In this document: positions 29,933 to 43,099 of the stretch, piece by piece
How the letters are laid out: the number at the start of each line of letters is the position of its first letter
Numbering within the stretch: position 1 is the stretch's first letter
From: Bacteroidota bacterium
GTDB taxonomy: Bacteria > Bacteroidota > Bacteroidia > Chitinophagales > Saprospiraceae
NCBI GenBank assembly: GCA_016124585.1
Contig: WGNL01000005.1
Coordinates: forward strand, 124,001 to 188,000
Reading direction: 5' to 3'
DNA length: 64,000 bases
Made by a program: the position numbers and the translations under genes
The notes under the pieces: model-generated
What the model saw: the letters and a program-made list of their open reading frames with translations, nothing else
Databases searched by the model: none
What the model was told of the DNA's origin: nothing

Positions 29933-30613
29933 TCACTCGTCACCTTCTTTTTTCTTTTTCTTTTTGTGCTTCAAAACCTTTGCCTCAAAGTAAAATATGA
30001 TTTCCTCTGCCAAGTTTTTAGACTGGTCACCCACTCTTTCCAGCTTCCGCATCATCGACATCACCAGCAGGGAATTTCGGGCTTGGTCTGGGTAGTTTTG
30101 GATGCATTCCAGCACCCGGTCTAGTGCTTTGTTGTCAATATCGTCTAGGATTTTGTCTCTTTTAAAAATGGTGCGTGCCAGTCTGGTATCTTCTTGGTCA
30201 AATGCCTCCAATGCATCCGCTATCATTTCGTTGGCCACGGCATACATCTCCAAGATTTTGGTATGTTCCAAAATTGCTTTGTTGAAATCCGTATCCGCTT
30301 CCAGAACGAAGTCTGCCACGCTGGCGGCAATGTCACCAATGCGCTCCAGGTTGTTGCCAATTTTCAAGGCCACCAACACCAACCGCAAGTCGGAAGCCAC
30401 TGGCTGGAACAGTGCAAAAATGTTTTCGCAATCCTTGTCAACTTTTAATTCAAAGGAATTGACCCGCTTCTCGTTTTCCATCACTTCCTCAGCGAGGTCA
30501 CGATCGAAGTTGGTGAGGGCTTTCATTCCCTTTTCCAACTGATTTACCACCAACTGCCACATTTCAATCAAGTCGGCTTTGAGGATTTTTAGCTCTGTAT
30601 CTAAATGAGTCAT
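29933..30613 (-). CDS. phoU: Phosphate-transport regulator PhoU (226 aa)
   Basis: PhoU joins the Pst transporter to phosphate signalling and limits uptake. The sequence is two PhoU three-helix repeats. The first has MENEKRVNSFELKVDKDCENIFALFQPVASDLRLVLVALKIGNNLERIGDIA, in pieces; its metal-binding acidic motif is NNLERIGDIA (E-x3-D). The second has MMRKLERVGDQSKNLAEEIIFYF. The C-terminus is a lysine-rich tail (HKKKKKKEGDE). It starts 10 bases after pstB, so it is in the same operon. Length agrees with the family (about 220-240). Confidence 0.96.
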   Translation of the reverse strand: MTHLDTELKILKADLIEMWQLVVNQLEKGMKALTNFDRDLAEEVMENEKRVNSFELKVDKDCENIFALFQPVASDLRLVLVALKIGNNLERIGDIAASVADFVLEADTDFNKAILEHTKILEMYAVANEMIADALEAFDQEDTRLARTIFKRDKILDDIDNKALDRVLECIQNYPDQARNSLLVMSMMRKLERVGDQSKNLAEEIIFYFEAKVLKHKKKKKKEGDE

Positions 30614-30622
30614 GATATTAAT

Positions 30623-31381
30623 TTACCCAAACCTGCCTGTAATGTAATTTTCTGTTTCCTGTTTGGTTGGGTTGGTAAAAATCTTTCTGGTTTTGCCATA
30701 TTCTATCAACTGGCCAAGGTAGAAAAAACCAGTGTAATCGCTCACCCGACCAGCTTGCTGCATGTTGTGCGTTACGATGACGATAGTAAACTGGTTTTTA
30801 AGTTCAAATATCAAATCTTCGATTTTGCCAGTGGAAATGGGGTCAAGTGCAGAGGCGGGCTCGTCCATCAACAGGATGGTAGGTTCGATTGCCAATGCCC
30901 TTGCGATGCAAAGTCGCTGCTGTTGTCCGCCCGAAAGCTCGAATGCAGATTGGTTCAATTTGTCCTTGACCTCGTCCCAAAGAGCTGCCTGCTGCAAGGT
31001 TTTTTCCACCTGTGCCTCTATCAACGACTTGTCCTTGATGCCATTCACCCGCAATCCATACGCCACATTTTCAAAAATGCTTTTTGGAAAAGGATTCGGA
31101 TTCTGAAAAACCATGCCCACATTACGGCGCAGGGAGTCAATTTCAGCGGGTTTTATTTGGTAAATATTTTGTCCGTCCAGCAGCACCTGCCCCGATATTT
31201 GCGTGTAGGGTATCAAATCGTTCATGCGGTTGAACAACCGCAGGTAGCTCGTCTTTCCACAACCCGAAGGCCCAATCAGTGCCGTCACTGCATTTTCTTT
31301 AATGCCCAATGTAATGCCCTTCAGCGCATGAAAATCGCCGTAGTACAGATGGGCATCTATGGTCTCTATTTTGTTTGACAT
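30623..31381 (-). CDS. pstB: Phosphate ABC transporter ATPase PstB (252 aa)
   Basis: The ATPase subunit that powers high-affinity phosphate import. Walker [12 protein letters not shown] (about 38-48), Q-loop region [18 protein letters not shown] typical of PstB, signature [16 protein letters not shown], Walker [14 protein letters not shown], and the switch histidine in [10 protein letters not shown]. The end is [10 protein letters not shown], the family C-terminus. It follows pstA after 88 bases that contain an interrupted pair of AT-rich inverted sequences. Confidence 0.98.
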
Positions 31382-31468
31382 CCTAAATTGTTGGGATTGT
31401 TAAATTGGTTTGTTGTTCTCTGAATTACGACAACAATAAAACAATCAAGCATTCATGCAATTCAACAA

Positions 31469-32353
31469 TCAATTCATTTTAACTTTCTTTCCAAAATAAT
31501 TGCGGAGCAAAGCTGCTATAATATTGACAATTAAGACAATAGCCACCAGCACGAATGCTGTTCCATAGGCCATTGGGCGGCTGGCTTCGATCTGGGTGCC
31601 ACTCGTCGAAATCACATAAAGATGGTAGGGCAATGCCATGCACTGGTCCATGATGCTACTGGGCAGTTTGGGCAAAAAATAGGCGGCAACCGTAAAAAGA
31701 ATAGGTGCTGTCTCCCCTGATACCCGTCCAACAGCAAGGATTAACCCAGTCAAAATATTCGGCAAGGCGATGGGCAGCACCACTTTTCGAATCGTATATA
31801 GTTTCGAGGCGCCAAGCGCATAGCTGGCCTGTCGGAAGGTGTCATCTACCGATTTAAGCGACTCCTCCGTGGTACGGATGACGATGGGCAATGCAAGCAG
31901 GCCCAAGGTCAGCGAACCAGCAATGATGCTGGCTCCAAATCCCATTTGGTTCACAAAAAGTGCCATGCCAAAAAGCCCGAAAATGATGCTTGGCACACCC
32001 GCCAAGTTGTTGGTCATTGTTTTCACAAAACGCTTTAAAGCACCTTCTTTAGCGTATTCATTGACATAAATACCTGCCATGACGCCCACTGGAAAAGCGA
32101 ACAGCATGCTGCCTCCCACTAAATACAAGGTGCCGACAATCGCTGGGTAGATGCCGCCTTTTGTCATCCCATCGGTAGGCATGCTCGTCAAATATTGCCA
32201 GTTGACTACCCCCATGCCTTGTTTTGCGATGAAAAAAAGGATGAGTAGCAACAGCCCCACGATGCCGTAACTGATACCCCTTGCAATGCCAAACATGATG
32301 GCTTGTCCCAGTTTCTTACGCCGCTCGTTGCTTTCAGGAAATATCATTTTCAA
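31469..32353 (-). CDS. pstA: Phosphate ABC transporter permease PstA (294 aa)
   Basis: One of the two membrane channel subunits of the Pst importer. It has six hydrophobic segments, the TM1 loop GMGVVNWQYLTSMPTDGMTKGGIYPAIVGTLYLV (in part) and the EAA-like cytoplasmic loop DDTFRQASYALGASKLYTIRKVVLP that docks on PstB. GRVSGETAPILFTVAAYF is a PstA family hallmark. Length matches the family (about 280-300). The start lies 8 bases after the pstC stop codon. Confidence 0.97.
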   Translation of the reverse strand: MKMIFPESNERRKKLGQAIMFGIARGISYGIVGLLLLILFFIAKQGMGVVNWQYLTSMPTDGMTKGGIYPAIVGTLYLVGGSMLFAFPVGVMAGIYVNEYAKEGALKRFVKTMTNNLAGVPSIIFGLFGMALFVNQMGFGASIIAGSLTLGLLALPIVIRTTEESLKSVDDTFRQASYALGASKLYTIRKVVLPIALPNILTGLILAVGRVSGETAPILFTVAAYFLPKLPSSIMDQCMALPYHLYVISTSGTQIEASRPMAYGTAFVLVAIVLIVNIIAALLRNYFGKKVKMN

Positions 32354-32360
32354 CTATTGA

Positions 32361-33551
32361 TTATCTTTTGGCAGAAACTCGTTCAACTAAAAGGTTGATT
32401 ATCAGGGTTATAAAGAATAGTACACAGCCAAGCGCAAACAATGCCTTGAAGTGCAAACCGTCATAGGGTGCTTCTCCTAACTCGGCAGCAATGGTGGCTG
32501 GAATAGTGCGTACAGGTTGCAAAAGTGAATGCGGCATGATGGCTGAATTGCCTGTGACCATGAGCGCTGCCATTGTTTCCCCAATGGCCCGGCCAATGCC
32601 CAAAATGGCCGCCGCCGTAATGCCTGAAGCTGCGTATGGCACTATTACCTTTCGGATGGTTTGCCACTGCGAAGCACCTAGCGCAAGGCTCGCTTCTTTC
32701 ATGGATCGGGGGGTGGTTCTTAGGGCGTCCTCCGAAACGGTGATGATGGTAGGCAAGGCCATGATTGCCAAAACGATGCTGCCGGACAAAGCTGTTTCGC
32801 CTACCGGCAAATTAAAGGCGTCCTGCACGAACGGAACAATGACAACAAGCCCAAAGAAGCCGTACACCACAGATGGTATGCCCGCCAGCAATTCGATGAT
32901 AGGCTTCAAGATTTTGCGTACCCGTTCGTCGGCGATTTCAGCCAAGTAGATGGATGCCGCCAAACCCAACGGTAGTGCAAACAAAATGGCGAAAAACGAG
33001 ACCAACATCGTTCCAAGCAATAGCGGCATTACCCCCATTCGTGCGGCTGGCCTGCTGGTTGGGAACCACTCCGTGTCGGTTAGGAATTTGGACAGGGCAA
33101 TCTTGTCCACTTCAACTTCCCTGGCGGTTTTGAGTTGACCAACGGTTTGGGCCTCAGGGAAAAAGCCAATGGTACCGGGCAGGCTGTCCATGAAGCTATC
33201 AAGGCAGCGTGGTAAATGCTCGAATTTAGGACCTAGTTGAGTTGGTGAATATGCCTGACTCAATTCGTCAAAGGAAAGTAAATGAATGGGTTCGTCTTTA
33301 CCGCCAATGCTTTTCCAATTGGTGATTTTTTGGTCAAAAATGTCCTTGATTTGGGCTGGTTCAAGTTTTTTGACGGGGTTGTTGGAGTGTACCCAAAGTG
33401 AGTACCCTTTTTCTACGGGCGAAAAATTGAAAAAAGAAATGCCTTCTCTAAAAAGAAAGATGACGATGAGCAACACAACGAACCCCGAGGAATAACCACA
33501 GACTTTTATCAAATTCTCAAAAAAAGGTTCCGTGTAGCGGCGCAGGTCCAT
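32361..33551 (-). CDS. pstC: Phosphate ABC transporter permease PstC with a PstS-like periplasmic insertion (396 aa)
   Basis: The second channel subunit of the Pst importer. TM1 (about 19-36) is followed by a 110-130-residue periplasmic segment, and then the remaining membrane segments with the EAA-like loop ALRTTPRSMKEASLALGASQ and GIGRAIGETMAALMVTGN. E. coli PstC has only a short loop after TM1 and is 319 residues. In the insertion, NNPVKKLEPAQIKDIF, KITNWKSIGG and GTIGFF match PstS (ENPVDKLTQQQIEKIF, DITNWKEVGG, GAIGYI) with identical spacing: 68 residues between the Asn and the Gly in both. The phosphate-binding SSGT of PstS is replaced by ELSQAY. The inserted part covers about 33138-33404. 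Confidence 0.95.
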   Translation of the reverse strand: MDLRRYTEPFFENLIKVCGYSSGFVVLLIVIFLFREGISFFNFSPVEKGYSLWVHSNNPVKKLEPAQIKDIFDQKITNWKSIGGKDEPIHLLSFDELSQAYSPTQLGPKFEHLPRCLDSFMDSLPGTIGFFPEAQTVGQLKTAREVEVDKIALSKFLTDTEWFPTSRPAARMGVMPLLLGTMLVSFFAILFALPLGLAASIYLAEIADERVRKILKPIIELLAGIPSVVYGFFGLVVIVPFVQDAFNLPVGETALSGSIVLAIMALPTIITVSEDALRTTPRSMKEASLALGASQWQTIRKVIVPYAASGITAAAILGIGRAIGETMAALMVTGNSAIMPHSLLQPVRTIPATIAAELGEAPYDGLHFKALFALGCVLFFITLIINLLVERVSAKR

Positions 33552-33573
33552 GCTGTATATTTTCTCGACAATG

Positions 33574-34419
33574 CTATTTCAAAGGTACAAATCCAGTTTC
33601 GGCAATATTTTTTTGGCCAGTTTCTGATAAAACATAGTCAACAAAAGCCCCAAGTTTCGTTTCATTTTTTGTCGCAAACAAATAGTAAAGTGGCCGTGTA
33701 ATTGGGTAGCTGCCATCTCTTGCCCCATCAATGGATGGTAGCATAAAACTTCTGCCACCATCAAAAGATACAGCCAACGGCTTTATTTTTTTTGTCAAAT
33801 ATGCCAGACCGATATATCCGATGGCACCTTTCGTTTGCCCAACTGATTGAACGATCGCACCAGTGGCGGGCATGTTTAGGACGGAGGGTGAATAGTTCTT
33901 TTTGTCCATTACTTCCTCCTTGAAAAACTCGTAAGTGCCAGATGAACTCTCCCTGCTGTAAACCGTGATTTTGAGGTCAGTGCCGCCTACTTCCTTCCAA
34001 TTAGTAATGTCCCCTGTGAAAATCTTTTCAATTTGTTGCTGTGTCAACTTGTCAACGGGGTTTTCAGCATTCACTACCACCGAAAGCGCATCGTAGCCAA
34101 TGACTACTTTTTTTATGTCAACCTCCTTTTCCGCAAAGCGGAGCTTCTCGTCAATTCTAAGTTCTCTTGAACTCATGCAGATATCTGTAGTACCATCCAA
34201 CAAGGCCGTGATGCCAGTACCAGAGCCACCTCCGACGACGGAAATGGCAGCTTCTGTGTTTGATTTAGTGAATTCTTCTACTTCTTTTTGGGTAATGGGC
34301 AAAACAGTGTCAGAACCCTTCACGGTGATGCTTGTCGTCGATTGTTGGTTTTTTGAGCCACAGCCAGCAGTAAAAATCAACGTTGTAATCGTGAAAAATA
34401 AACAAAAAATGTATCTCAT
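33574..34419 (-). CDS. pstS: Phosphate-binding lipoprotein PstS (281 aa)
   Basis: The periplasmic receptor that hands phosphate to PstC/PstA. The start at 34419 gives MRYIFCLFFTITTLIFTAGCG, a lipoprotein signal with Cys 20; the frame opens 20 codons earlier. Ligand-site motifs are KGSDTVLPI (34-42), GGGSGTGI (63-70), DICMSSRELR and RESSSGTYEFF (156-166). It is the first gene of pstSCAB-phoU. Two Pst-related promoters face away from each other upstream. Length fits the shorter PBP-like PstS type. Confidence 0.97.
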   Translation of the reverse strand: MRYIFCLFFTITTLIFTAGCGSKNQQSTTSITVKGSDTVLPITQKEVEEFTKSNTEAAISVVGGGSGTGITALLDGTTDICMSSRELRIDEKLRFAEKEVDIKKVVIGYDALSVVVNAENPVDKLTQQQIEKIFTGDITNWKEVGGTDLKITVYSRESSSGTYEFFKEEVMDKKNYSPSVLNMPATGAIVQSVGQTKGAIGYIGLAYLTKKIKPLAVSFDGGRSFMLPSIDGARDGSYPITRPLYYLFATKNETKLGAFVDYVLSETGQKNIAETGFVPLK

Positions 34420-34451
34420 ACGCTTTAGGCAGGCTGTTTTTCCTTGCATGG

Positions 34452-34459
34452 CAAAGGTA
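34452..34459 (-). promoter_or_regulatory. pstS: Promoter -7 element of pstS
   Basis: The minus strand reads TACCTTTG, a full TAnnTTTG match 33 bases before the pstS ATG. The region at the usual -33 distance has no TTG, as expected for an activator-dependent promoter. Confidence 0.65.
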
Positions 34460-34486
34460 GTGTTCTTGCGCCCAACCATTGATAAG

Positions 34487-34519
34487 CTAAGTCAATGTTA
34501 ATTTAAACTTAACCTAGCG
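34487..34519. promoter_or_regulatory. Possible PhoB-type operator between pstS and the PiT gene
   Basis: Three units phased at 11 bp start at 34487 (CTAAGTCAATG), 34498 (TTAATTTAAAC) and 34509 (TTAACCTAGCG). They share YTAA at the same position. OmpR/PhoB-family regulators bind 11-bp direct repeats, and the site sits midway between the two divergent promoters. The match to the repeats at 39625-39668 is partial. Confidence 0.45.
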
Positions 34520-34545
34520 TAAGCAAGGTAGATGCGCTCATTTAA

Positions 34546-34553
34546 TACCTTTG
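34546..34553 (+). promoter_or_regulatory. Promoter -7 element of the PiT-type transporter gene
   Basis: TACCTTTG fully matches TAnnTTTG and lies 30 bases before the ATG at 34583. It is identical to the element of the divergent pstS promoter. Confidence 0.65.
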
Positions 34554-34582
34554 TCCGATTTTTAAAACAAACAACTATTTTT

Positions 34583-35983
34583 ATGCTATTTGGCTACGAC
34601 CTAGGACTTTCTACTGGACTCATCGTAATGCTTGGGGTCACTCTTCTTGTCGTGTGCATTTTTGAATTTGTGAATGGCTTCCACGATACCGCCAATGCTG
34701 TAGCTACCGTAATTTATACGGGTACTTTGAAGCCAATTCAAGCAGTTGTTTGGTCAGGCTTAATGAATTTTTTAGGGGTGATAACAAGTGCGCACCTGTT
34801 TGGGATGGGAGTAGCCATAAAAATTGCCAGTTTGTTGCCCATTGATGCCATCATGGGCCAAGACCTTCACCATAGTATTGCCATGGTCATTTCGGCTTTG
34901 TTGGGGGCAATAATTTGGAATATCACTACTTGGTATTTTGGTATCCCATGTTCTAGCTCGCATACGATGATTGGTGCGCTGTTGGGCGTGGGAATGGTCT
35001 TCACAATGATGCCTGAAAACACTGACCAGGCTGGTGTCAATTGGGGAGAAGCTATCAAAATTGGGCAAGCCCTCCTTTTTTCGCCCGCATTTGGTTTCTC
35101 CTTGGCCATTATCCTCATGTTCATATTGCGTCAAGTAATCAAGAATAAAAAGATTTTCAAAGAACCTGAACCGGGAAGTACGCCCCCATTAGGCATTCGT
35201 GCGGTACTCATTGGTACTTGCACATTGGTCAGCTTTTTTCATGGCTCCAACGATGGTCAAAAAGGTGTTGGTTTGATGCTGATCGCTTTGATGACTTTTT
35301 TGCCGATGCATTTTGCACTTGCTCCAGATTTTGATGCGCAAAAAGTGACACAATCCATCACTACCATTCAAGCCGCACTGCCGCAAGATGTAACCTTGCC
35401 AGAACTCAAAAAAACAACTGAAACACTGGAACTGCTAAAAAATGACGTAGCATCTCTTGAGCCAGATAATGTCAAGCAACGCCTCAATATCCGCAAACGC
35501 CTTGGCATCCTTGACAAAAGCATGAAGGCTTTGCTATCGGTGCCAAACGTTATTTTCAGCCAAGCATCTCAGAACACCATCGTATCCGAATTGAAAACAT
35601 TGGGCAAGAACACGTCCTATGTTCCTACTTGGTGTATTGTGCTCATTTCCATTTCGTTGGGCTTGGGAACAATGATTGGTTGGAAAAGAATCGTGGTGAC
35701 CATCGGTGAAAAAATCGGGAAAAACCACCTCACCTATGCCGAAGGCGCTACAGCGGAAATCGTAGCTGCGGGTACTATTTTTATGGCATCAGGCCTTTCA
35801 CTACCTGTGAGCACCACCCATATCCTTTCGTCGGGCGTTGCTGGCGCAATGGTAGCCACTAAGGGCACCAAGAACTTGCAAAGCGGCACTATCAAAAACA
35901 TCGCCATCGCTTGGCTATTGACGTTGCCAGCCACTATTTTACTGGCAGGGCTGATGTATTATATTCTTCGGAATATCATTTAA
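34583..35983 (+). CDS. PiT-family inorganic phosphate transporter (466 aa)
   Basis: A low-affinity, ion-coupled phosphate carrier. The start at 34583 (MLFGYDLGLSTGLIVML) lies just after the promoter; an upstream ATG at 34532 would place the -7 element inside the gene. The two inverted PiT repeats are seen: FVNGFHDTANAVATVIYTG near the N-terminus and GSNDGQKGVGLM in the second repeat. Between the repeats is a cytoplasmic loop of about 100 charged residues (EPEPGSTPPLG..., then the helical KKTTETLELLKNDVASL). The C-terminal half has SGLSLPVSTTHILSSGVAGAM. The divergent position next to pstS suggests shared phosphate control. Confidence 0.95.
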   Translation: MLFGYDLGLSTGLIVMLGVTLLVVCIFEFVNGFHDTANAVATVIYTGTLKPIQAVVWSGLMNFLGVITSAHLFGMGVAIKIASLLPIDAIMGQDLHHSIAMVISALLGAIIWNITTWYFGIPCSSSHTMIGALLGVGMVFTMMPENTDQAGVNWGEAIKIGQALLFSPAFGFSLAIILMFILRQVIKNKKIFKEPEPGSTPPLGIRAVLIGTCTLVSFFHGSNDGQKGVGLMLIALMTFLPMHFALAPDFDAQKVTQSITTIQAALPQDVTLPELKKTTETLELLKNDVASLEPDNVKQRLNIRKRLGILDKSMKALLSVPNVIFSQASQNTIVSELKTLGKNTSYVPTWCIVLISISLGLGTMIGWKRIVVTIGEKIGKNHLTYAEGATAEIVAAGTIFMASGLSLPVSTTHILSSGVAGAMVATKGTKNLQSGTIKNIAIAWLLTLPATILLAGLMYYILRNII

Positions 35984-36004: not shown

Positions 36005-36739
36005 TTACCCAAGTTTTTTTACATTAAAATTTTGGGTGAAATACAGCTTGAGCACGTTTCGCTGGAGGTATTCGCCAAGTGGCTGACGACTGATCAACTG
36101 ACTCAAATACCCTAATTCAATCCCCGTGTTTTTGGAAAGCTTTCGGTAAACGCCGAACCCAAACAAATTGCGCTCAAATAGACTGAGTGCATCTTTCTGG
36201 AATACATTGAAAACCACATCGTTGGACGCTCGCAACTCCCATTTTTCACCCATTAAATAATTGACGAGCAAGGCCAAACGCAGACGTGGCAGTAGGTCGA
36301 ACTTATCACTTCCCTTTGCCTTGTTTTGTTGCACAAAACGCTCTTCTAACCTTAGGCGATTGGTAATCGAAAACTTGCCTGACACATGCTTCTGCAAAAT
36401 ACTTTGGTGTAGGCGTATGTCAGCATAGTGTGGGTGCGTTTGCAGCTCGGCTTCCGAATAGTTTTGACCATAAAAATGAAAATGGGCAGCGGCAGCGTCT
36501 ACGGCGAAGTTGCCCTTAAGCTGCACTTGCAGTTGACCCCGCAAAAAGGCAGCGGCATAGCCTTTTTCTTCAAAAAAGCGGCGACTTTCTGCATCAAAAA
36601 GCAGTTGCGTTTTAGCAGGGAAATTTACGGCTGCCGAATAGCGAAGCCAGTATTGCGGCTGGTGTGTGGTATGCTTTTGTCCAGTGGCCATGCCCGGAAT
36701 CAACCCCAGCAATAGCAGCGGTAATATGTTTATTTTCAT
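36005..36739 (-). CDS. DUF2490-family outer-membrane-type protein (244 aa)
   Basis: Signal peptide MKINILPLLLLGLIPGMATGQ. The rest is the DUF2490 pattern: QYWLRYSAAVNFPAKTQLLFDAESRRFF, repeated amphipathic beta-strands, and the family landmark ITNRLRLEERFVQQN, ending in a C-terminal strand with LKLYFTQNFNV. This predicts a small beta-barrel or beta-rich outer-membrane protein of unknown role. It converges with the PiT gene (22 bases apart) and is divergent from a second DUF2490 gene at 36823. They are paralogues, though only moderately alike. Confidence 0.82.
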   Translation of the reverse strand: MKINILPLLLLGLIPGMATGQKHTTHQPQYWLRYSAAVNFPAKTQLLFDAESRRFFEEKGYAAAFLRGQLQVQLKGNFAVDAAAAHFHFYGQNYSEAELQTHPHYADIRLHQSILQKHVSGKFSITNRLRLEERFVQQNKAKGSDKFDLLPRLRLALLVNYLMGEKWELRASNDVVFNVFQKDALSLFERNLFGFGVYRKLSKNTGIELGYLSQLISRQPLGEYLQRNVLKLYFTQNFNVKKLG

Positions 36740-36822: not shown

Positions 36823-37512
36823 ATGTTTATGCGAAACTTGTTTGTTTTGGCTTTTGGCCTCTTCCCTTTTGCCGCTATTTTAGGCCAAAATGCTGACCCT
36901 CAAAAAGAATTTGGTAACTGGAATGCTTGGATAAATAGCCTCAACTTTAGTCCAAAATGGAAGCTGGATTCTGATGTCCATTTTCGGTTTTGGCAGTTCG
37001 GGAAAGACCCCAACACACTCATCCTTCGTGGGCAATTGACTTATGTACTGCACCCTGCGGTCGAACTAGGTGCTGGTTACGGTTATTTTGAGTTCTACCC
37101 CTACGGTGATGTAGCCGATTTGAAACCCAATTCTAAAGAGCACCGCCCCTACCAGCAGGCTTTTATCAAACATAAAATCAAAAAATTCTCTTTCAATCAT
37201 CGACTTCGCTTGGAGGAGCGTCTGATTCAAACCCCTGCAAAAAAAGAAGTGCTGCGTTCTAGGTATCGTTTCATGGTATCGCATCCGGTGCAGGACAGAC
37301 TTTACGCCTTCTTGGCCTACGAGCATTTTTGGACCTGGTCTGACCTGAAATTTGACCAGGGCCGACTGCATATCGGACTTGGTCATCCGCTGGGCAAACA
37401 CACCAAATTTGAGCTTGCTTATTTGTTCCACAAAGTGAAAAATGACCAGGAATTCAATCGACTTCAAGTAAATTTGATTACCAATTTCAAGTTGAAATCG
37501 AAGGAGGATTAG
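36823..37512 (+). CDS. DUF2490-family outer-membrane-type protein (229 aa)
   Basis: Signal peptide MFMRNLFVLAFGLFPFAAILGQ. It continues FGNWNAWINSLNFSPKWKLDSDVHFRFW, and has the DUF2490 landmark FNHRLRLEERLIQTP, then repeated strands (GRLHIGLGHPLGKHTKFELAYLFH) to a C-terminal strand VNLITNFKLKS. It is likely a small outer-membrane beta-barrel. Only 12 bases separate it from the response regulator at 37525, so the three genes (DUF2490, regulator, kinase) appear to form an operon and the protein may belong to the stimulus pathway. An alternative start two codons later (36829) is equally possible. Confidence 0.82.
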   Translation: MFMRNLFVLAFGLFPFAAILGQNADPQKEFGNWNAWINSLNFSPKWKLDSDVHFRFWQFGKDPNTLILRGQLTYVLHPAVELGAGYGYFEFYPYGDVADLKPNSKEHRPYQQAFIKHKIKKFSFNHRLRLEERLIQTPAKKEVLRSRYRFMVSHPVQDRLYAFLAYEHFWTWSDLKFDQGRLHIGLGHPLGKHTKFELAYLFHKVKNDQEFNRLQVNLITNFKLKSKED

Positions 37513-37524
37513 CAAAACCATCGC

Positions 37525-38202
37525 ATGAAAGTACTGCTGATTGACGACGAAATTTCTATCAACGGCTTCATCAACAAGGGATTGGAGGAAAATGGCTTTG
37601 AAGTCACCCAAGCATTTGATGGTGAAATGGGCCTGCGGCTTGCTCGTGGAGGTAGTTTCGACGTCATCATTCTCGACCTCATCATGCCAGGTATCAATGG
37701 TCTTGAAGTCTGTCGAAAACTGCGGGAGGAGCACCAAATACAGACGCCAATCCTCATGCTCACAGCCCTGAATACTACTGAGGATGTAGTGGAAGGCTTG
37801 AACGTCGGCGCCGACGATTACCTCGGTAAACCCTTCAAATTTCAAGAACTATTGGCGAGGGTTCGAGCTTTGGGCCGCCGCCGAGGGTTGGTGGACAAAC
37901 CCCTCAACCTACTTCGGGTAGCTGATTTGACGATAGACTTGGACCAAAAAATAGTGACGAGGGCCGACCAAGAATTGCAGCTAACGCTCAAGGAATTTCT
38001 GCTGTTGGAATGTCTTGTCCGTAACAAAAACCGGGTGCTCAGCCGACTAGACCTTCTGGAAAAAGTTTGGGGCATACACTTCGATACGGGCACCAACGTC
38101 GTGGACGTGTACATGAATTACCTCCGCAACAAAATTGACAAGCCATTCGACCAGAAACTTATTCAGACAGTGGTTGGCATGGGCTACGTCATCCGGGATT
38201 GA
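37525..38202 (+). CDS. OmpR/PhoB-family response regulator (225 aa)
   Basis: A DNA-binding response regulator. The receiver domain (1-120) has the acidic pair in LLIDDE (5-9), the phospho-acceptor Asp 51 in VIILDLIMPG, the switch Thr in LMLTALN and Lys in GKPFKFQELLARV. The winged-helix domain (about 130-222) has LTLKEFLLLECLVRNKNRVLSRLDLLEKVWG and VDVYMNYLRNKID, and ends VVGMGYVIRD. This subfamily usually binds 11-bp direct repeats. Such repeats lie 1.4 kb downstream, before the SulP gene. Sequence alone does not say whether phosphate, bicarbonate or metal is the signal; the CusR-like wording of the receiver is not decisive. Confidence 0.95.
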   Translation: MKVLLIDDEISINGFINKGLEENGFEVTQAFDGEMGLRLARGGSFDVIILDLIMPGINGLEVCRKLREEHQIQTPILMLTALNTTEDVVEGLNVGADDYLGKPFKFQELLARVRALGRRRGLVDKPLNLLRVADLTIDLDQKIVTRADQELQLTLKEFLLLECLVRNKNRVLSRLDLLEKVWGIHFDTGTNVVDVYMNYLRNKIDKPFDQKLIQTVVGMGYVIRD

Positions 38203-38279: not shown

Positions 38280-39611
38280 ATGAAAATCCGCAACCGCCTT
38301 ACCATCATTTACACTTTGACTGCCTTCGCAACGATGGTTGCAGGGGGCATTTTCATCTATTGGTTTAGCGCACGTTTTCATCACAAGGATTTTTTTCGGC
38401 GCTTAGAAGAACGAGTGGACATCACGGAGCAGATTTTTTTGGAAAAAAACGAAACTGTTACCCAAGCCGTACGGGAGAAATTCTTGCATACACTCGACGA
38501 AGAAATTGAGTTCACGGTGACGCTACAACCCAGCGGACTAGACTCGTTGAACCAGTTTTTACCAGAGCTGGGTGACCAGATTTTGCAAAACGATGTGGCT
38601 TTTTTTTGGCAAAACGGACGGCAGGGTGTTTGCAAACGTTATCATCTCCCAGCCGGCGAATATGCCGTGGTGGTCACCGCAGCCGATTTTTTTGGGCAAA
38701 AGAAGTTGGAAAACTTAAAGCATATCTTGCTTTCTGGTGCGCTTTTGGGCAGCGGCTTTCTTATCGTTGTGGGCTACTGGGTAACAGGCCGGGCACTGCG
38801 GCCCCTCGAAAACAAGATTCACGATGCCAGCCGCATCAGTGCCAATCGGTTCGACCTTCGATTGGCAGTGGAAAACCCAGATGACGAGCTTGGTCAGCTT
38901 GCTCTTGCCTTCAACTCCACTCTTGACCGTTTGCAAGCTGCTTTTGAGGCTCAAAGACGTTTTGTCAGCAACGCAAGCCACGAACTTCGAAACCCAATGA
39001 CGGCCATCATCGGCGAGGCCGAAGTGCTGCTCTCACGGGAACGGACACCGGCCGAGTACCGGGCCGCAGTGCAAATAATCCAAACAGAAGCAGCCAGGTT
39101 GGAGCGCCTTACCAATGACCTGCTAGCCCTCGCCAATTCTGACTCCATGACACAACTGCCCGCTCCGCAGCTCGTCGCCATCGATACGGTTTTGCTTGAA
39201 GTTTTGGAGAGATACCCCGCCGAGCGGTTGATGCTCGATATTGCTGAAGTAACTACCCCACCCACCGTATTGGCCAGCCTGTCATTGCTCACTTCTGCTT
39301 TCAACAATGTGTTGGAGAATGCCTTCAAATTCAGTGGTGACAAGCCTGTGACAGTCAGCTTGTCAGCCAGTGCGACTGGGTGTTTGGTCAAAATCACAGA
39401 TTTGGGAATTGGCATTCCTGCCTCAGAGATGGGGCATATTTACCAGCCGCTTTTTCGAGCCCGCAATGCAAGAGGGTTTAAAGGAACAGGTTTTGGATTG
39501 CCATTGGCCAAAAAAATAATTGAACTGCATGGTGGCCAATTGGAGGTGCATTCCGAAGAGGGCAAGGGCACCACGGCGTCAATTTTCCTCCAAATTACTG
39601 CTTCGAAATAA
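38280..39611 (+). CDS. Membrane sensor histidine kinase (443 aa)
   Basis: The cognate kinase of the regulator at 37525, 77 bases upstream. Two membrane segments (about 8-30 and 148-168) enclose a periplasmic sensor of about 115 residues (HHKDFFRRLEERVDITEQIF...) that I cannot assign. A HAMP domain follows (RALRPLENKIHDASRISANRFDLRL). HisKA has the phospho-acceptor His 234 in NASHELRNPMTAIIGE. The ATPase domain has NVLENAFKFS (N box), ITDLGIGIP (G1) and GTGFGLPLAKKIIELHGG (G2). It is an ordinary, complete EnvZ/CusS-type architecture. The gene ends just before the repeat-bearing promoter of the SulP gene. Confidence 0.95.
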   Translation: MKIRNRLTIIYTLTAFATMVAGGIFIYWFSARFHHKDFFRRLEERVDITEQIFLEKNETVTQAVREKFLHTLDEEIEFTVTLQPSGLDSLNQFLPELGDQILQNDVAFFWQNGRQGVCKRYHLPAGEYAVVVTAADFFGQKKLENLKHILLSGALLGSGFLIVVGYWVTGRALRPLENKIHDASRISANRFDLRLAVENPDDELGQLALAFNSTLDRLQAAFEAQRRFVSNASHELRNPMTAIIGEAEVLLSRERTPAEYRAAVQIIQTEAARLERLTNDLLALANSDSMTQLPAPQLVAIDTVLLEVLERYPAERLMLDIAEVTTPPTVLASLSLLTSAFNNVLENAFKFSGDKPVTVSLSASATGCLVKITDLGIGIPASEMGHIYQPLFRARNARGFKGTGFGLPLAKKIIELHGGQLEVHSEEGKGTTASIFLQITASK

Positions 39612-39622
39612 CTGAATCTTAT

Positions 39623-39668
39623 TTCTAATCTGGTTCTAATCTCGCTCTTATTTCCTTCTAATCCATTG
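39623..39668. promoter_or_regulatory. Phased 11-bp direct repeats before the SulP gene (probable response-regulator operator)
   Basis: The octamer TTCTAATC occurs exactly at 39623, 39634 and 39656, and a degenerate unit (CTCTTATT) at 39645 fills the missing phase, so four units repeat every 11 bp. The last unit ends 9 bases before the -7-like element at 39673. This is the geometry of Pho-box-type activator sites, where tandem dimers bound at 11-bp spacing replace the -33 element. Confidence 0.75.
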
Positions 39669-39672
39669 CCTT

Positions 39673-39680
39673 GAACTTTG
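39673..39680 (+). promoter_or_regulatory. -7 element of the SulP gene promoter
   Basis: GAACTTTG differs from TAnnTTTG only at the first base. No TTG lies 19 bases upstream; that place is filled by the direct repeats. Transcription would begin near 39686, leaving a leader of about 80 bases. Confidence 0.5.
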
Positions 39681-39765: not shown

Positions 39766-41427
39766 ATGGAAAATAACATTCATTTGGAACAGCCGAAAAC
39801 CGGCTTTTTCAGTAATTTAAAAAACGACCTCCCTGCTAGTATCGTCGTGTTTTTGGTGGCAACGCCATTATGTTTGGGCATTGCCTTGGCATCTGGAGCA
39901 CCGCTGTTTTCGGGCATCATTGCAGGCATCATTGGCGGCATCGTGGTAGGTATGGTAAGTGGCTCTCCGCTTGGTGTATCTGGCCCTGCGGCAGGTTTGG
40001 CGGTTATTGTGCTCAATGCAATTGCGGCATTTGGCTCGTACCAAACCTTTCTCCTTGCGGTAGTCTTGGCTGGTATATTTCAGTTGGCACTAGGATACCT
40101 GCGGGCTGGTGTTATCGGCTATTATTTTCCTTCTTCGGTGATAAAAGGAATGCTTTCTGGCATTGGTCTAATCATCATTTTGAAACAAATCCCCCATGCT
40201 TTTGGCTATGATGAAGTACCGGAGGGCAACCTTGAGTTTGCGCAAGCAGATGCCCAAAATACTTTCTCTGAGTTCACAAACATGCTGAATTATGTACAGC
40301 CGGGCGCTATCATCATCACCTTGATTTCATTAGCCATCATGATTTTTTGGGATAGGCCTTTTATGAAAAAACTCAAAATATCGCAGTGGGTACAAGGTCC
40401 GTTAGTGGCCGTGGTTAGTGGTATTTTACTCAATTTGCTTTTCAATGCAGTAGCCCCGTCTTTGGCCATTGACCCTAAACACTTGGTGCAATTGCCCGTA
40501 GCTGACAGCTGGGAAGGAGTATTGGGTTTATTCACATACCCAGATTTCAGCCAACTCGGCAATATGGCCGTTTACACCACAGCACTCACCATTGCGGTAG
40601 TGGCCAGTCTCGAAACACTGCTCTGTGTCGAAGCAACCGACAAGCTTGATCCACAGAAACGTGTCACACCTACGAACCGGGAGTTGAAAGCACAGGGGAT
40701 TGGCAATATTTTTTCTGGATTGGTTGGTGGCTTGCCCATAACACAAGTGATTGTTCGCAGCTCTGCAAACATCCAGTCGGGGGGGCGCACAAAGGCGTCA
40801 GCAGTGCTGCACGGGGTATTTCTTTTGATTGCGGCATTGGCCATCCCTACCGTTTTGAATATGATTCCTCTCGCTTGCTTGGCAGCTATCCTATTTGTGG
40901 TGGGCTACAAATTGGCAAAGCCAGCGCTTTTCAAAGCTATGTATCGCCAAGGTTGGTACCAGTTTGCACCCTTCGTCGTAACGGTGCTAGGTATCTTGTT
41001 CTCCGACTTGCTCATTGGCATCGGCTTAGGAATGGGTGTGGCGATTTTCTTTATTCTGCTAAACAATTACCGTAACCCATACTTCCTCGCTGATGAACCG
41101 CACAAGCCTGGTGATTTGATTCAGATAAAACTATCGGAAGAAGTGACTTTCCTCAACCGGGCGAGCATCATGCGTACCCTGGATGAAATCCCGCCACATG
41201 CTAAGGTGGAAATTGACGCCAGCCGCTCCGTCAGCATCGACTACGATGTGTACGAACTGATAAAAAATTACGAAGAAAAAGCTAGGATGAACGGCACGGA
41301 ACTTAAGCTGAAAGGCTTCTCTAGCATGAAACAAGAGAACGACTCTGTGCGGCGTATCAAGCGGGTCATCCGAAGGGAACAGCGGTTGGCCAATGAACTG
41401 GAATTGACGGAACAACAAGCTAATTGA
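39766..41427 (+). CDS. SulP-family anion (probably bicarbonate) transporter with STAS domain (553 aa)
   Basis: The ATG at 39766 (MENNIHLEQPKTGFF) is preferred over a GTG two codons upstream. The membrane part (about 20-440) has the SulP opening NLKNDLPASIVVFLVATPLCLGIALASGAP, SGPAAGLAVIV and GLVGGLPITQVIVRSSANIQSGGRTKAS. The C-terminal STAS-like domain (about 455-535) has SEEVTFLNRASIMRTLDEIP and DASRSVSIDYDVYELI. SulP members carry sulfate, chloride or bicarbonate. A carbonic anhydrase follows 68 bases downstream, which points to dissolved inorganic carbon uptake, as in BicA-type systems. The substrate is not proven by sequence. Confidence 0.92.
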   Translation: MENNIHLEQPKTGFFSNLKNDLPASIVVFLVATPLCLGIALASGAPLFSGIIAGIIGGIVVGMVSGSPLGVSGPAAGLAVIVLNAIAAFGSYQTFLLAVVLAGIFQLALGYLRAGVIGYYFPSSVIKGMLSGIGLIIILKQIPHAFGYDEVPEGNLEFAQADAQNTFSEFTNMLNYVQPGAIIITLISLAIMIFWDRPFMKKLKISQWVQGPLVAVVSGILLNLLFNAVAPSLAIDPKHLVQLPVADSWEGVLGLFTYPDFSQLGNMAVYTTALTIAVVASLETLLCVEATDKLDPQKRVTPTNRELKAQGIGNIFSGLVGGLPITQVIVRSSANIQSGGRTKASAVLHGVFLLIAALAIPTVLNMIPLACLAAILFVVGYKLAKPALFKAMYRQGWYQFAPFVVTVLGILFSDLLIGIGLGMGVAIFFILLNNYRNPYFLADEPHKPGDLIQIKLSEEVTFLNRASIMRTLDEIPPHAKVEIDASRSVSIDYDVYELIKNYEEKARMNGTELKLKGFSSMKQENDSVRRIKRVIRREQRLANELELTEQQAN

Positions 41428-41495: not shown

Positions 41496-42161
41496 ATGCG
41501 TACTCACACCAAAGAAACTCAATCGAGTTTGACGCCCCAGAAGGCGCTACAATTTTTGAAGGAAGGCAACCAGCGGTTCGTTGGAAACCTGAGCTATAAC
41601 CGTAACCTGCTTCAACAAGTGAACGAGACTTCCGATGGACAGTTCCCATTCGCAGTGGTTTTGAGCTGCATTGACAGCCGCACCTCTGCTGAGCTGATTT
41701 TTGACCAAGGGCTGGGCGATATTTTCAGCGTCAGAATCGCTGGGAACGTTCTAAACAACGACATCCTTGGCAGCATGGAATTTGCTTGCAATGTGGCTGG
41801 CTCAAAGCTAGTGGTGGTACTTGGCCACTCGAAATGTGGCGCAGTCAAAGGGGCTTGCGCTAACGTGAAAATGGGACACTTGACAGGGCTTTTGGATAAA
41901 ATCCAACCTTCCATCAACAAGGTCACTTTGCAGCAAACTAAATTAGATGCGGCAGATTTTGTGGAGGAGGTAGCCACGGAGAATGTGCTCCTGCAAATGC
42001 AGCAAGTGCTCGAACAGAGTGAAATTTTGCGAAATCTTTACGAAGAAGGAAAAATAGGGGTAGTTGGTGCAATGTACAGTGTAGAGACTGGCGAAGTGGA
42101 ATTTTTGTCGAAAATGTTCTTAGAAACCGCCAATGTCAAATCTGAGAAGTTAGCGGCTTGA
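41496..42161 (+). CDS. Beta-carbonic anhydrase (221 aa)
   Basis: Interconverts CO2 and bicarbonate. The zinc ligands are present: Cys 58 and Asp 60 in SCIDSRTSAE, and His 111 and Cys 114 in LGHSKCGAVKGAC. The Asp-Arg dyad (D60, R62) and the IRIAGN-like segment VRIAGNVLN are in place, as is the C-terminal GVVGAMYSVETGEVEFL. There is no signal peptide, so it is cytoplasmic. It lies directly after the SulP gene, so the pair probably imports bicarbonate and equilibrates it for carboxylases. It is closed by a terminator at 42272. Confidence 0.96.
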   Translation: MRTHTKETQSSLTPQKALQFLKEGNQRFVGNLSYNRNLLQQVNETSDGQFPFAVVLSCIDSRTSAELIFDQGLGDIFSVRIAGNVLNNDILGSMEFACNVAGSKLVVVLGHSKCGAVKGACANVKMGHLTGLLDKIQPSINKVTLQQTKLDAADFVEEVATENVLLQMQQVLEQSEILRNLYEEGKIGVVGAMYSVETGEVEFLSKMFLETANVKSEKLAA

Positions 42162-42271
42162 TTCCATGTTCCCGCAAAGTTTATACAATATTAATGTAGG
42201 CTTTGCACTGCCTTCTTGGGCTGGGAATATATTTCACCAGTTTTCTAATTAAGAATCTCCCTTCGGGGAGC

Positions 42272-42306
42272 AGAGGCTGTTCCGTAAGGGGCAGCCTCTT
42301 TGTTTT
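42272..42306 (+). terminator. Intrinsic terminator after the carbonic anhydrase gene
   Basis: AGAGGCTG (42272-42279) pairs with CAGCCTCT (42292-42299), and is followed by TTGTTTTT. It separates the SulP-carbonic anhydrase pair from the TauE-like gene at 42347. Confidence 0.85.
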
Positions 42307-42346
42307 TCTGTTTTTTACTAAAACAGCCTTTCTTTGCCCATTAAAA

Positions 42347-43099
42347 ATGGAATTCCTCCAACACTTCCAACTCACGGGCTTTGAATGGACAATGGTAGCC
42401 CTCACAGCACTGGCCATCGGCCTGTCTAAAACTGGCTTGAATGGCCTAGGCACATTGTTCGTCCCAATCTTGGCGCATGTGTTCGGTGGAAAAGCTTCTA
42501 CTGGTATCGTGCTCCCCTTGCTCATCATGGCCGATATATTTGCAGTTGCTTACTACCGAAGACACGCCGATTGGTCTGTACTGGTGAGACTGCTGCCTTG
42601 GGCGTTTGTGGGCATTGTCATCGGTACAGTGACCAGCAAGCAAATTGACGATGAAACCTTCAAAATAATCATGGGGGTCATCATTGTGCTTAGCGTGGTC
42701 ATCATGATATGGCAGGAAACACGCACCGAGCATTTGATACCCAGTCATAGGGCATTTGCAGCAGCAATGGGCTTGGCAGCGGGCTATACTACTATGGTAG
42801 GAAATTTGGCTGGTGCAGTTACCTCACTTTATTTGTTATCCATGCGGCTGCCAAAGAACAATTTTATCGGCACTGGAGCCTGGTTCTACCTTTCCATCAA
42901 TTGCTTTAAAGTACCATTTCATATTTTTTCGTGGGAAACCATTAGCTGGGAAAGCTTCAAAATGGACCTTGTAATGTTTCCATTTATTGCTATCGGAGCG
43001 GTATTGGGCATCCTCATTATTAAACGATTGAGCGAATCGGTGTATCGCAAATTCATCATTGGTATGACTTTGGCGACAGTTGTCCTGCTGTTTTGGTAA
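42347..43099 (+). CDS. TauE/SafE-family membrane permease (250 aa)
   Basis: The start at 42347 (MEFLQHFQLTGFEWTMVALTAL) is chosen because the upstream codons of the open frame overlap the terminator. Eight hydrophobic segments and two repeats with conserved glycines are seen: LAIGLSKTGLNGLGTLFVPILAHVFGGKASTGIVLPLLIMADIF in the first half, in part, and GLAAGYTTMVGNLAGAVTSLYLL in the second. The family exports sulfite, sulfonates or organosulfur compounds, or imports small anions. No sulfur-metabolism gene is adjacent, so the substrate is unknown. Confidence 0.9.
   Translation: MEFLQHFQLTGFEWTMVALTALAIGLSKTGLNGLGTLFVPILAHVFGGKASTGIVLPLLIMADIFAVAYYRRHADWSVLVRLLPWAFVGIVIGTVTSKQIDDETFKIIMGVIIVLSVVIMIWQETRTEHLIPSHRAFAAAMGLAAGYTTMVGNLAGAVTSLYLLSMRLPKNNFIGTGAWFYLSINCFKVPFHIFSWETISWESFKMDLVMFPFIAIGAVLGILIIKRLSESVYRKFIIGMTLATVVLLFW

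Follow-up and report, generated by a model that had tools for sequence, protein, structure and literature searches.

A conserved array of 11-bp direct repeats between an OmpR-type two-component pair and SulP-carbonic anhydrase genes in a Saprospiraceae bacterium, and related arrays in other Bacteroidota

Background

Escherichia coli PhoB contacts sigma70 from 11-nt direct repeats with the Pho motif CTGTCAT (PMC4415409), and base-specific contacts are made by its residue R201 (PMC3264566). In the crystal of Mtb PhoP bound to DNA, Tyr220 hydrogen-bonds the C of TCACAGC (PMC4832192). Promoters of Bacteroidota are unlike those of E. coli: in a flavobacterium the -7 box spans -12 to -5 (PMC9723704), and in Bacteroides the promoter has, in addition, TTTG near -33 (PMC7366714). 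In the literature searched, we found no account of a classical two-component system with a binding array of the kind treated here, nor of array-linked two-component control of a SulP or BicA transporter; no paper on the motif described below, its spacing or its covariation was found by title or abstract start, which is a weak sign that none exists. The E. coli CusR box is an inverted repeat. The pairing of a SulP transporter with a carbonic anhydrase was reportedly put forward by Felce and Saier as bicarbonate uptake.

Here we analyse a stretch of 64,000 nucleotides (hereafter the window) from a 6.63-Mb Saprospiraceae genome, in which a four-unit repeat array separates an OmpR/PhoB-type two-component pair from genes for a SulP transporter and a beta-carbonic anhydrase. 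As in the E. coli PhoB/Pho box system, where sigma contact is described (PMC4415409), the repeats are direct, head to tail and spaced by 11 nt, and the regulator has the OmpR/PhoB winged helix; unlike in that system, the unit is TTCTAATC and not CTGTCAT, the regulator scores below the PhoB cut-offs, and the promoter element is a Bacteroidota -7 box, not a -10 box. An earlier sequence-only reading had called the array Pho-box-style, a description that stands for the geometry but not for the regulator or the motif. The Mtb PhoP-DNA complex (PMC4832192) shares the 7-bp motif with a 4-bp spacer, and its Tyr220 aligns with Tyr199 of our regulator; it differs in having two half-sites, TCACAGC, in an actinobacterium, whereas here four half-sites stand at a fixed distance from TAnnTTTG. 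CusR/CopR/CzcR-type systems give the top NCBIfam score for both our regulator (TIGR01387, cztR_silR_copR; 224.2 of the 279.2 bits required) and our kinase, and homologs with TolC-like targets bear the same array, but both proteins remain below the family cut-offs and the target here is SulP-carbonic anhydrase. Finally, the locus resembles the BicA/SulP-carbonic anhydrase pairs in its SulP family membership, its adjacent beta-carbonic anhydrase and its best solved match, 6ki1, while its SulP protein falls far below the BicA equivalog cut-off.

Results

Gene content of the locus

The response regulator gene (37525..38202, + strand) encodes receiver and winged-helix domains (Pfam PF00072 and PF00486, above cut-off) with the recognition helix NVVDVYMNYLRNKID, which carries Tyr199 and Asn202; the closest regulators among named records (88-91% identity) come from Saprospiraceae, Bacteroidota. 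It is followed by a membrane histidine kinase gene (38280..39611, +; HAMP, HisKA and HATPase_c), CopS/CusS-like and under the family cut-off. Two divergent DUF2490 genes precede the pair, at 36005-36739 (-) and 36823..37512 (+; Pfam PF10677); the second ends 12 bp before the response regulator gene, is perhaps co-transcribed with it and may head the regulator-kinase operon. On the other side of the array lie target gene 1, for a SulP-family anion transporter and putative bicarbonate transporter (39766..41427, +; Pfam PF00916, E 1.5e-58), and target gene 2, for a beta-carbonic anhydrase (41496..42161, +; Pfam PF00484, NCBIfam NF011765 above cut-off). Folding of the stretch 42240-42320 gives -30.5 kcal/mol (z -4.5), and the terminator-like hairpin in it, which a T-rich tract follows (42272..42299, +), would mark the end of the SulP-carbonic anhydrase unit. 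Beyond the hairpin is a TauE/SafE-type permease gene (42347-43099), which stays near SulP-carbonic anhydrase in three other genomes (G001, G013 and G008). Just upstream of the two-component pair, positions 29933-35983 hold phoU-pstBACS (-) and a gene for a PitA-like transporter (+).

This neighbourhood of pst, phoU and PitA-like genes would suit a phosphate (PhoB/PhoR) system with a true Pho box, as would the regulator-kinase pairs found beside pst in G001 and G008 also. However, the regulator reaches 185.1 of 296.2 bits on the PhoB model TIGR02154 and 174.5 of 270 bits on the Bacteroidetes PhoB model NF053854, on which another regulator of the same genome scores 220.7 bits, also below the cut-off; the repeat unit departs from the Pho motif; and no array precedes pstS or PitA. 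Moreover, no pst gene was found downstream of the kinase homologs, where 44 of 100 downstream genes were SulP, Usp-like, TolC-like or adhesin genes and 56 were unclassified. The PhoB scores and the lack of an array before pstS and PitA led us to reject phosphate regulation as the main reading, and we hold it to be extremely improbable, the least probable of the readings weighed here.

The repeat array and its chance controls

According to the sequence-only reading, TTCTAATC occurs at 39623, 39634 and 39656 with a weak copy at 39645, and 9 bases separate the repeats from a -7-like box. The letters bear out each of these points: units 1 (39623..39630), 2 (39634..39641) and 4 (39656..39663), all on the + strand, are TTCTAATC and are conserved in nine aligned arrays; unit 3 (39645..39652, +) is the degenerate CTCTTATT, which matches TTCTAATC at 5 of 8 positions and is itself retained in G001 and G013; and GAACTTTG occupies 39673-39680. 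The gap between the kinase gene and the array had been given as 12 bases and is in fact 11, because the kinase stop codon ends at 39611.

The window contains TTCTAATC three times, every copy inside the array. A count of at least three is in itself no rarity, being reached in 22 of 100 shuffles; the phased three-copy pattern, by comparison, has a single match in the window when up to 3 mismatches are allowed and never appeared in 100 dinucleotide-preserving shuffles, in keeping with the 11-bp phasing claimed earlier. The array scores 42.7 at a spacing of 11 bp, against 4.4-7.2 at the control spacings of 9, 10, 12 and 13 bp, and, register-shifted readings of this array aside, no other four-unit 11-bp array in the window scores above 13. 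An origin of the array by chance or low complexity was thus rejected, on the shuffles of the phased pattern and the period controls.

Conservation before SulP and association with the kinase

The sequence-only reading had proposed conservation of the array upstream of orthologous SulP genes as a check, and the array is there in 5 of 5 orthologs of at least 70% identity (G013, G001, G008, G006 and G007; 70-85% identical), each time with four units and at an equal distance from a -7-like box. Four units also precede SulP in G014 (same family, other genus) and in G040 (same order, other family; -7-like box TATCATTG), and all seven loci keep the exact 11-bp spacing, the 9 bp and an nAnnTTTG-like box. 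In G010 the array lies directly 3' of the kinase gene, and a Usp-domain gene sits between array and SulP. The nine SulP-linked arrays align without gaps; all of them share the TTnTAAT core in units 1 and 2 and, in the -7 box, the A and the closing TTG.

Among 30 SulP loci gathered by SulP similarity alone, the array was found in 8/8 loci where a kinase match lies no more than 1.5 kb upstream, as against 1/22 of the rest (Fisher p 1.5e-6, ignoring shared ancestry), with the reservation that the score, built from the same nine arrays, may overlook divergent arrays at the other 21 loci. The sole array without an adjacent kinase is that of G008, where the array stands at SulP and the regulator and kinase are on another contig beside pst. 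G217 resembles it: the gene that its array precedes encodes 298 aa and lies upstream of SulP (L107), and its regulator-kinase pair is elsewhere (L134). Neither kinase nor array was detected in 20 further SulP loci (L146-L165), hand-picked from the family list of SulP loci and not drawn at random.

Starting from the kinase, 38 homologs were found by kinase similarity in 298 family genomes, and in 28 of them an array with a score of 20 or more lies no further than 400 bp 3' of the kinase gene, each unmatched in 100 shuffles; four of these arrays had helped to build the score, and without them the count is 24/34. An array at every homologous kinase is consequently not what we observed, ten of the 38 having no strong array 3' of the gene (G008, G270, G304, G140, G219, G135, G305, G217, G006:C34 and G233). 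The g127 genomes, four in number (L126-L129), are all among these ten. Two good units are present in G135 and a weak array in G006:C34, and the G305 locus is close to the end of a contig. G008 and G217 have their array elsewhere, near SulP, which leaves eight.

Genome, family and phylum surveys

For wider searches we used R1, a sequence-only model of 12 arrays that includes the -7 box. In the window's genome, where 150 of 2714 first-look candidates were scored, R1 found three strong arrays, all beside kinases of the same family, the next best match having an E value of 0.33; it thus seems that a pair has a single target region nearby. A large regulon was not supported, as the search of this genome showed no strong sites beyond the SulP array and the pair on C15. 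The latter (L062 7615 and 8200, G000:C15) are two TTTTAAT-type arrays between a paralogous kinase gene and the gene for a 2090-aa repeat protein.

Using stricter filters, which lose weak matches, R1 matched in 45 of 298 family genomes at E 0.01 and in 40 of 395 phylum genomes at E 0.001. Of the fetched family matches, 16/20 lay within 400 bp 3' of such a kinase, and 19 of 28 phylum loci (L166-L193) had such a kinase in the 3-kb stretch, 6-412 bp upstream of the array. Most genomes searched consist of many contigs, array calls rest on score thresholds, and shared ancestry inflates simple tests. Repeats were also noticed at two further loci. In L172 (G512:C65) three arrays follow one kinase gene in a row (1119, 1502 and 2130), each then followed by TACTTTTG or TAGTTTTG at equal distance, and at L048 6976 (G013) four tandem 11-bp CTCAAATCCTC-like repeats, not of the TTCTAAT unit, run into the start of a threonine-dehydratase-like gene.

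The kinases of Bacillota and of Saccharibacteria/Patescibacteria belong to a tree group that lacks the TTCTAAT array. Five Gracilibacillus/Saliterribacillus loci (Bacillota; L213, L218, L224, L226 and L229, all Tyr199) have TTCTCAT repeats immediately 3' of the homologous kinase gene, seen post hoc and spaced by 11 bp throughout in three loci and partly in two; no TTCTCAT repeats were found 3' of the kinase gene in two Domibacillus loci. This suggests that the kinase-array arrangement reaches Bacillota. A relaxed scan of a Chitinophagaceae group with Phe199 gave no clear array, the best score being 20.0 in L219 at a distance of 409 bp.

Promoter geometry

The -7 box GAACTTTG (39673..39680, +) matches 5/6 of TAnnTTTG, the first T being missing, and lies 17 bp from the start of unit 4; transcription is predicted to start at about 39685. 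A TAnnTTTG match of at least 5/6 is found at +50 from the array start in 9/9 SulP-linked seed arrays and in 46 of 67 arrays overall, the other positions being +48/+51/+52 (6 counts), +61 to +63 (10), which is one helical turn beyond +50, and elsewhere between +36 and +74 (7). Four of 20 family regions (L112, L121, L123 and L125) and four of 28 phylum loci (L188, L189, L190 and L193) were left out of the 67, because a four-unit register was not clear or because there were five to six units, as were the second arrays in L062, L166 and L172. Because R1 includes the -7 box as defined by the seed arrays, the unbiased part of this count is formed by the 16 arrays in kinase- or regulator-picked loci, where the box is at +50 in five, +51 in one and +61 or +62 in seven, while three fit neither. 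In 22 of 30 loci, the first frame that opens with ATG and is at least 60 aa long lies at a distance of 62-106 nt from the array start, which fits the expectation for a promoter; in the window, the SulP ATG is 143 nt from the array start.

With the -7 box put at -12 to -5, the array spans about -62 to -22 and covers the place of the -33 box. The sequence-only reading had described the -7-like element as lacking a -33 partner, and this holds: TTTG near -33 is absent in the window and was found in this zone in 2 of 46 comparable promoters.

The overlap of the array with the -33 zone is where a bound protein could also block polymerase, and the sign of control is not readable from sequence alone, so that the regulator might bind the array as a repressor of the SulP-carbonic anhydrase promoter, freeing it on signal. 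Yet there is scarcely a -33 box left to block (the 2/46 above), and the -7 box is in most cases 17 bp away, or one helical turn further, a near-fixed distance that suits protein-protein contact. From repeats of this type, E. coli PhoB makes contact with sigma70 (PMC4415409). Repression therefore appears improbable to us, and activation is the reading that we carry forward.

Covariation of the regulator with its array

Base 3 of the unit is in most cases C or T in the 68 loci with regulator, kinase and array, a set that remained after 54 of 122 regulator-kinase loci had been dropped for scoring below 26 and that leaves out L107, L112, L120 and L123, where the fetched stretch with the array contains no regulator. 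Next to Tyr199 regulators (59 loci), base 3 is C in 168 units, T in 64 and another base in 4; next to Phe199 regulators (9 loci) it is T in 36/36 units. Residue 199 is the top column for this base (p 4.4e-13, uncorrected) and still ranks first in a phylogenetic least-squares scan of 736 residue tests (p 4.2e-8), followed in the corrected scan by residue 202 (Asn vs Lys; p 4.9e-5). On a tree built without the helix, the Tyr/Phe199 state changes, by gain or loss, at least three times on supported branches, and residue and base match in the same direction in 3/3 independent lineage pairs, too few for significance (p 0.25). Four further Phe199 loci (L227, L240, L246 and L252) were scanned with a pattern that allowed only T, and three of the four were not above the control periods, with spacing that was only partly 11 bp; they are not counted as support for T at base 3.

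Mtb PhoP Tyr220, the residue that contacts C in the crystal, aligns with Tyr199, its helix NVVESYVSYLRRKID being aligned to NVVDVYMNYLRNKID. R201 of PhoB is presumably the equivalent of Tyr199 too.

Similar recognition helices are also found in paralogs, including the C15 pair of this genome, so the array might instead be read in trans by a different regulator of the same fold, the adjacent pair being there by operon history. Against this, the residue/base covariation is with the adjacent regulator, and the two pairs of this genome differ accordingly: Tyr199 with C in all four units in the window, versus Phe199 with an all-T array at C15. A reader in trans is thus, in our estimation, very improbable. 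The link to the adjacent regulator, suggested earlier from the window, gains support from co-occurrence, covariation and structural precedent together.

Targets and the SulP substrate

The genes downstream of the 100 kinases were SulP (14), Usp-like plus SulP (7), Usp-like (9), TolC-like (12), large adhesin (2) and unclassified (56). A gene was classed as Usp-like when similar to one of five query proteins, and a Pfam Usp match was present in two of the seven Usp-like proteins scanned (L116 and L056), five being without; the combined class includes L108, with SulP at only 26% identity, and L130, with the Usp-like gene after SulP. One TolC match is 1.4 kb away (L166). On the kinase tree, from which L194, L195 and L198 had been removed as duplicates, the SulP label needs at least eight changes on supported branches, which makes SulP a recurrent target, though losses count too.

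At several array-linked SulP genes, a search of the 3.3 kb downstream of the kinase detected no carbonic anhydrase, so the SulP-carbonic anhydrase pairing is not universal. In the window, the beta-carbonic anhydrase gene directly follows SulP, and this order is kept in the five closest orthologous loci. Near the intact SulP gene of G027, C218:25963-26441 contains SulP fragments with stop codons, perhaps a decayed duplicate.

These data bear on the possibility that the adjacent regulator acts through the array while SulP carries another anion (sulfate or other), the output being stress or anion homeostasis. The SulP protein scores 134.2 bits against a cut-off of 880 for the BicA model NF050096, and several related array-linked SulP genes come with a Usp-like gene and no carbonic anhydrase detected nearby, both of which favour another anion. 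Its retained carbonic anhydrase neighbour points the other way, as does its nearest solved chain, 6ki1 (E 9.9e-27), which its depositors named 'Low affinity sulfate transporter' and which we take to be the BicA membrane domain. Another anion is possible but on balance unlikely, and bicarbonate would be the substrate in the reading developed below.

Discussion

On the evidence of conservation, kinase co-occurrence, covariation at residue 199 and the Mtb PhoP crystal contact, it is very likely that the array takes the place of a -33 box and is read by the adjacent OmpR-type regulator; as far as sequence comparison can establish them, the binding mode and the partner of the array are well supported. 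Activation of the -33-less promoter is what we infer from the geometry and from the PhoB precedent (PMC4415409). That the adjacent regulator binds the array, replaces the -33 box and activates the SulP-carbonic anhydrase genes from a weak -7 element is, taken as a whole, a likely reading.

In this mechanism, the phosphorylated regulator would occupy the four head-to-tail half-sites as two dimers, each recognition helix reading one TCTAAT core, with Tyr199 reading the C at unit position 3. The array, at about -62 to -22, would stand in for the -33 box, and the primary sigma factor would start from the weak -7 element by class II, PhoB-like activation. The transcript would comprise SulP and beta-carbonic anhydrase, and its output would be more bicarbonate uptake and CO2/HCO3- interconversion upon an envelope or periplasmic signal that the kinase presumably senses.

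In a wider perspective, the observed targets of this arrangement are SulP with or without carbonic anhydrase, Usp-like proteins, TolC-like efflux and large adhesins. We lean, with some reserve, towards a portable cassette across Bacteroidota (regulator - kinase - four 11-bp half-sites - 9 bp - TAnnTTTG - target) that would repeatedly gain targets and carry a one-residue DNA code, in which Tyr199 would correspond to C and Phe199 to T at base 3. Such a cassette of varied targets is of more interest than the SulP case itself. If it is real, the targets of many uncharacterised two-component systems could be read from sequence. In the present case, the sequence alone points to the regulator, the site, its geometry to the -7 box, the target genes and the specificity residue. 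If this holds, the same reading would apply to 68 regulator-array loci and would provide a testable specificity code, and in Saprospiraceae the handling of bicarbonate and CO2 would be tied to an envelope signal.
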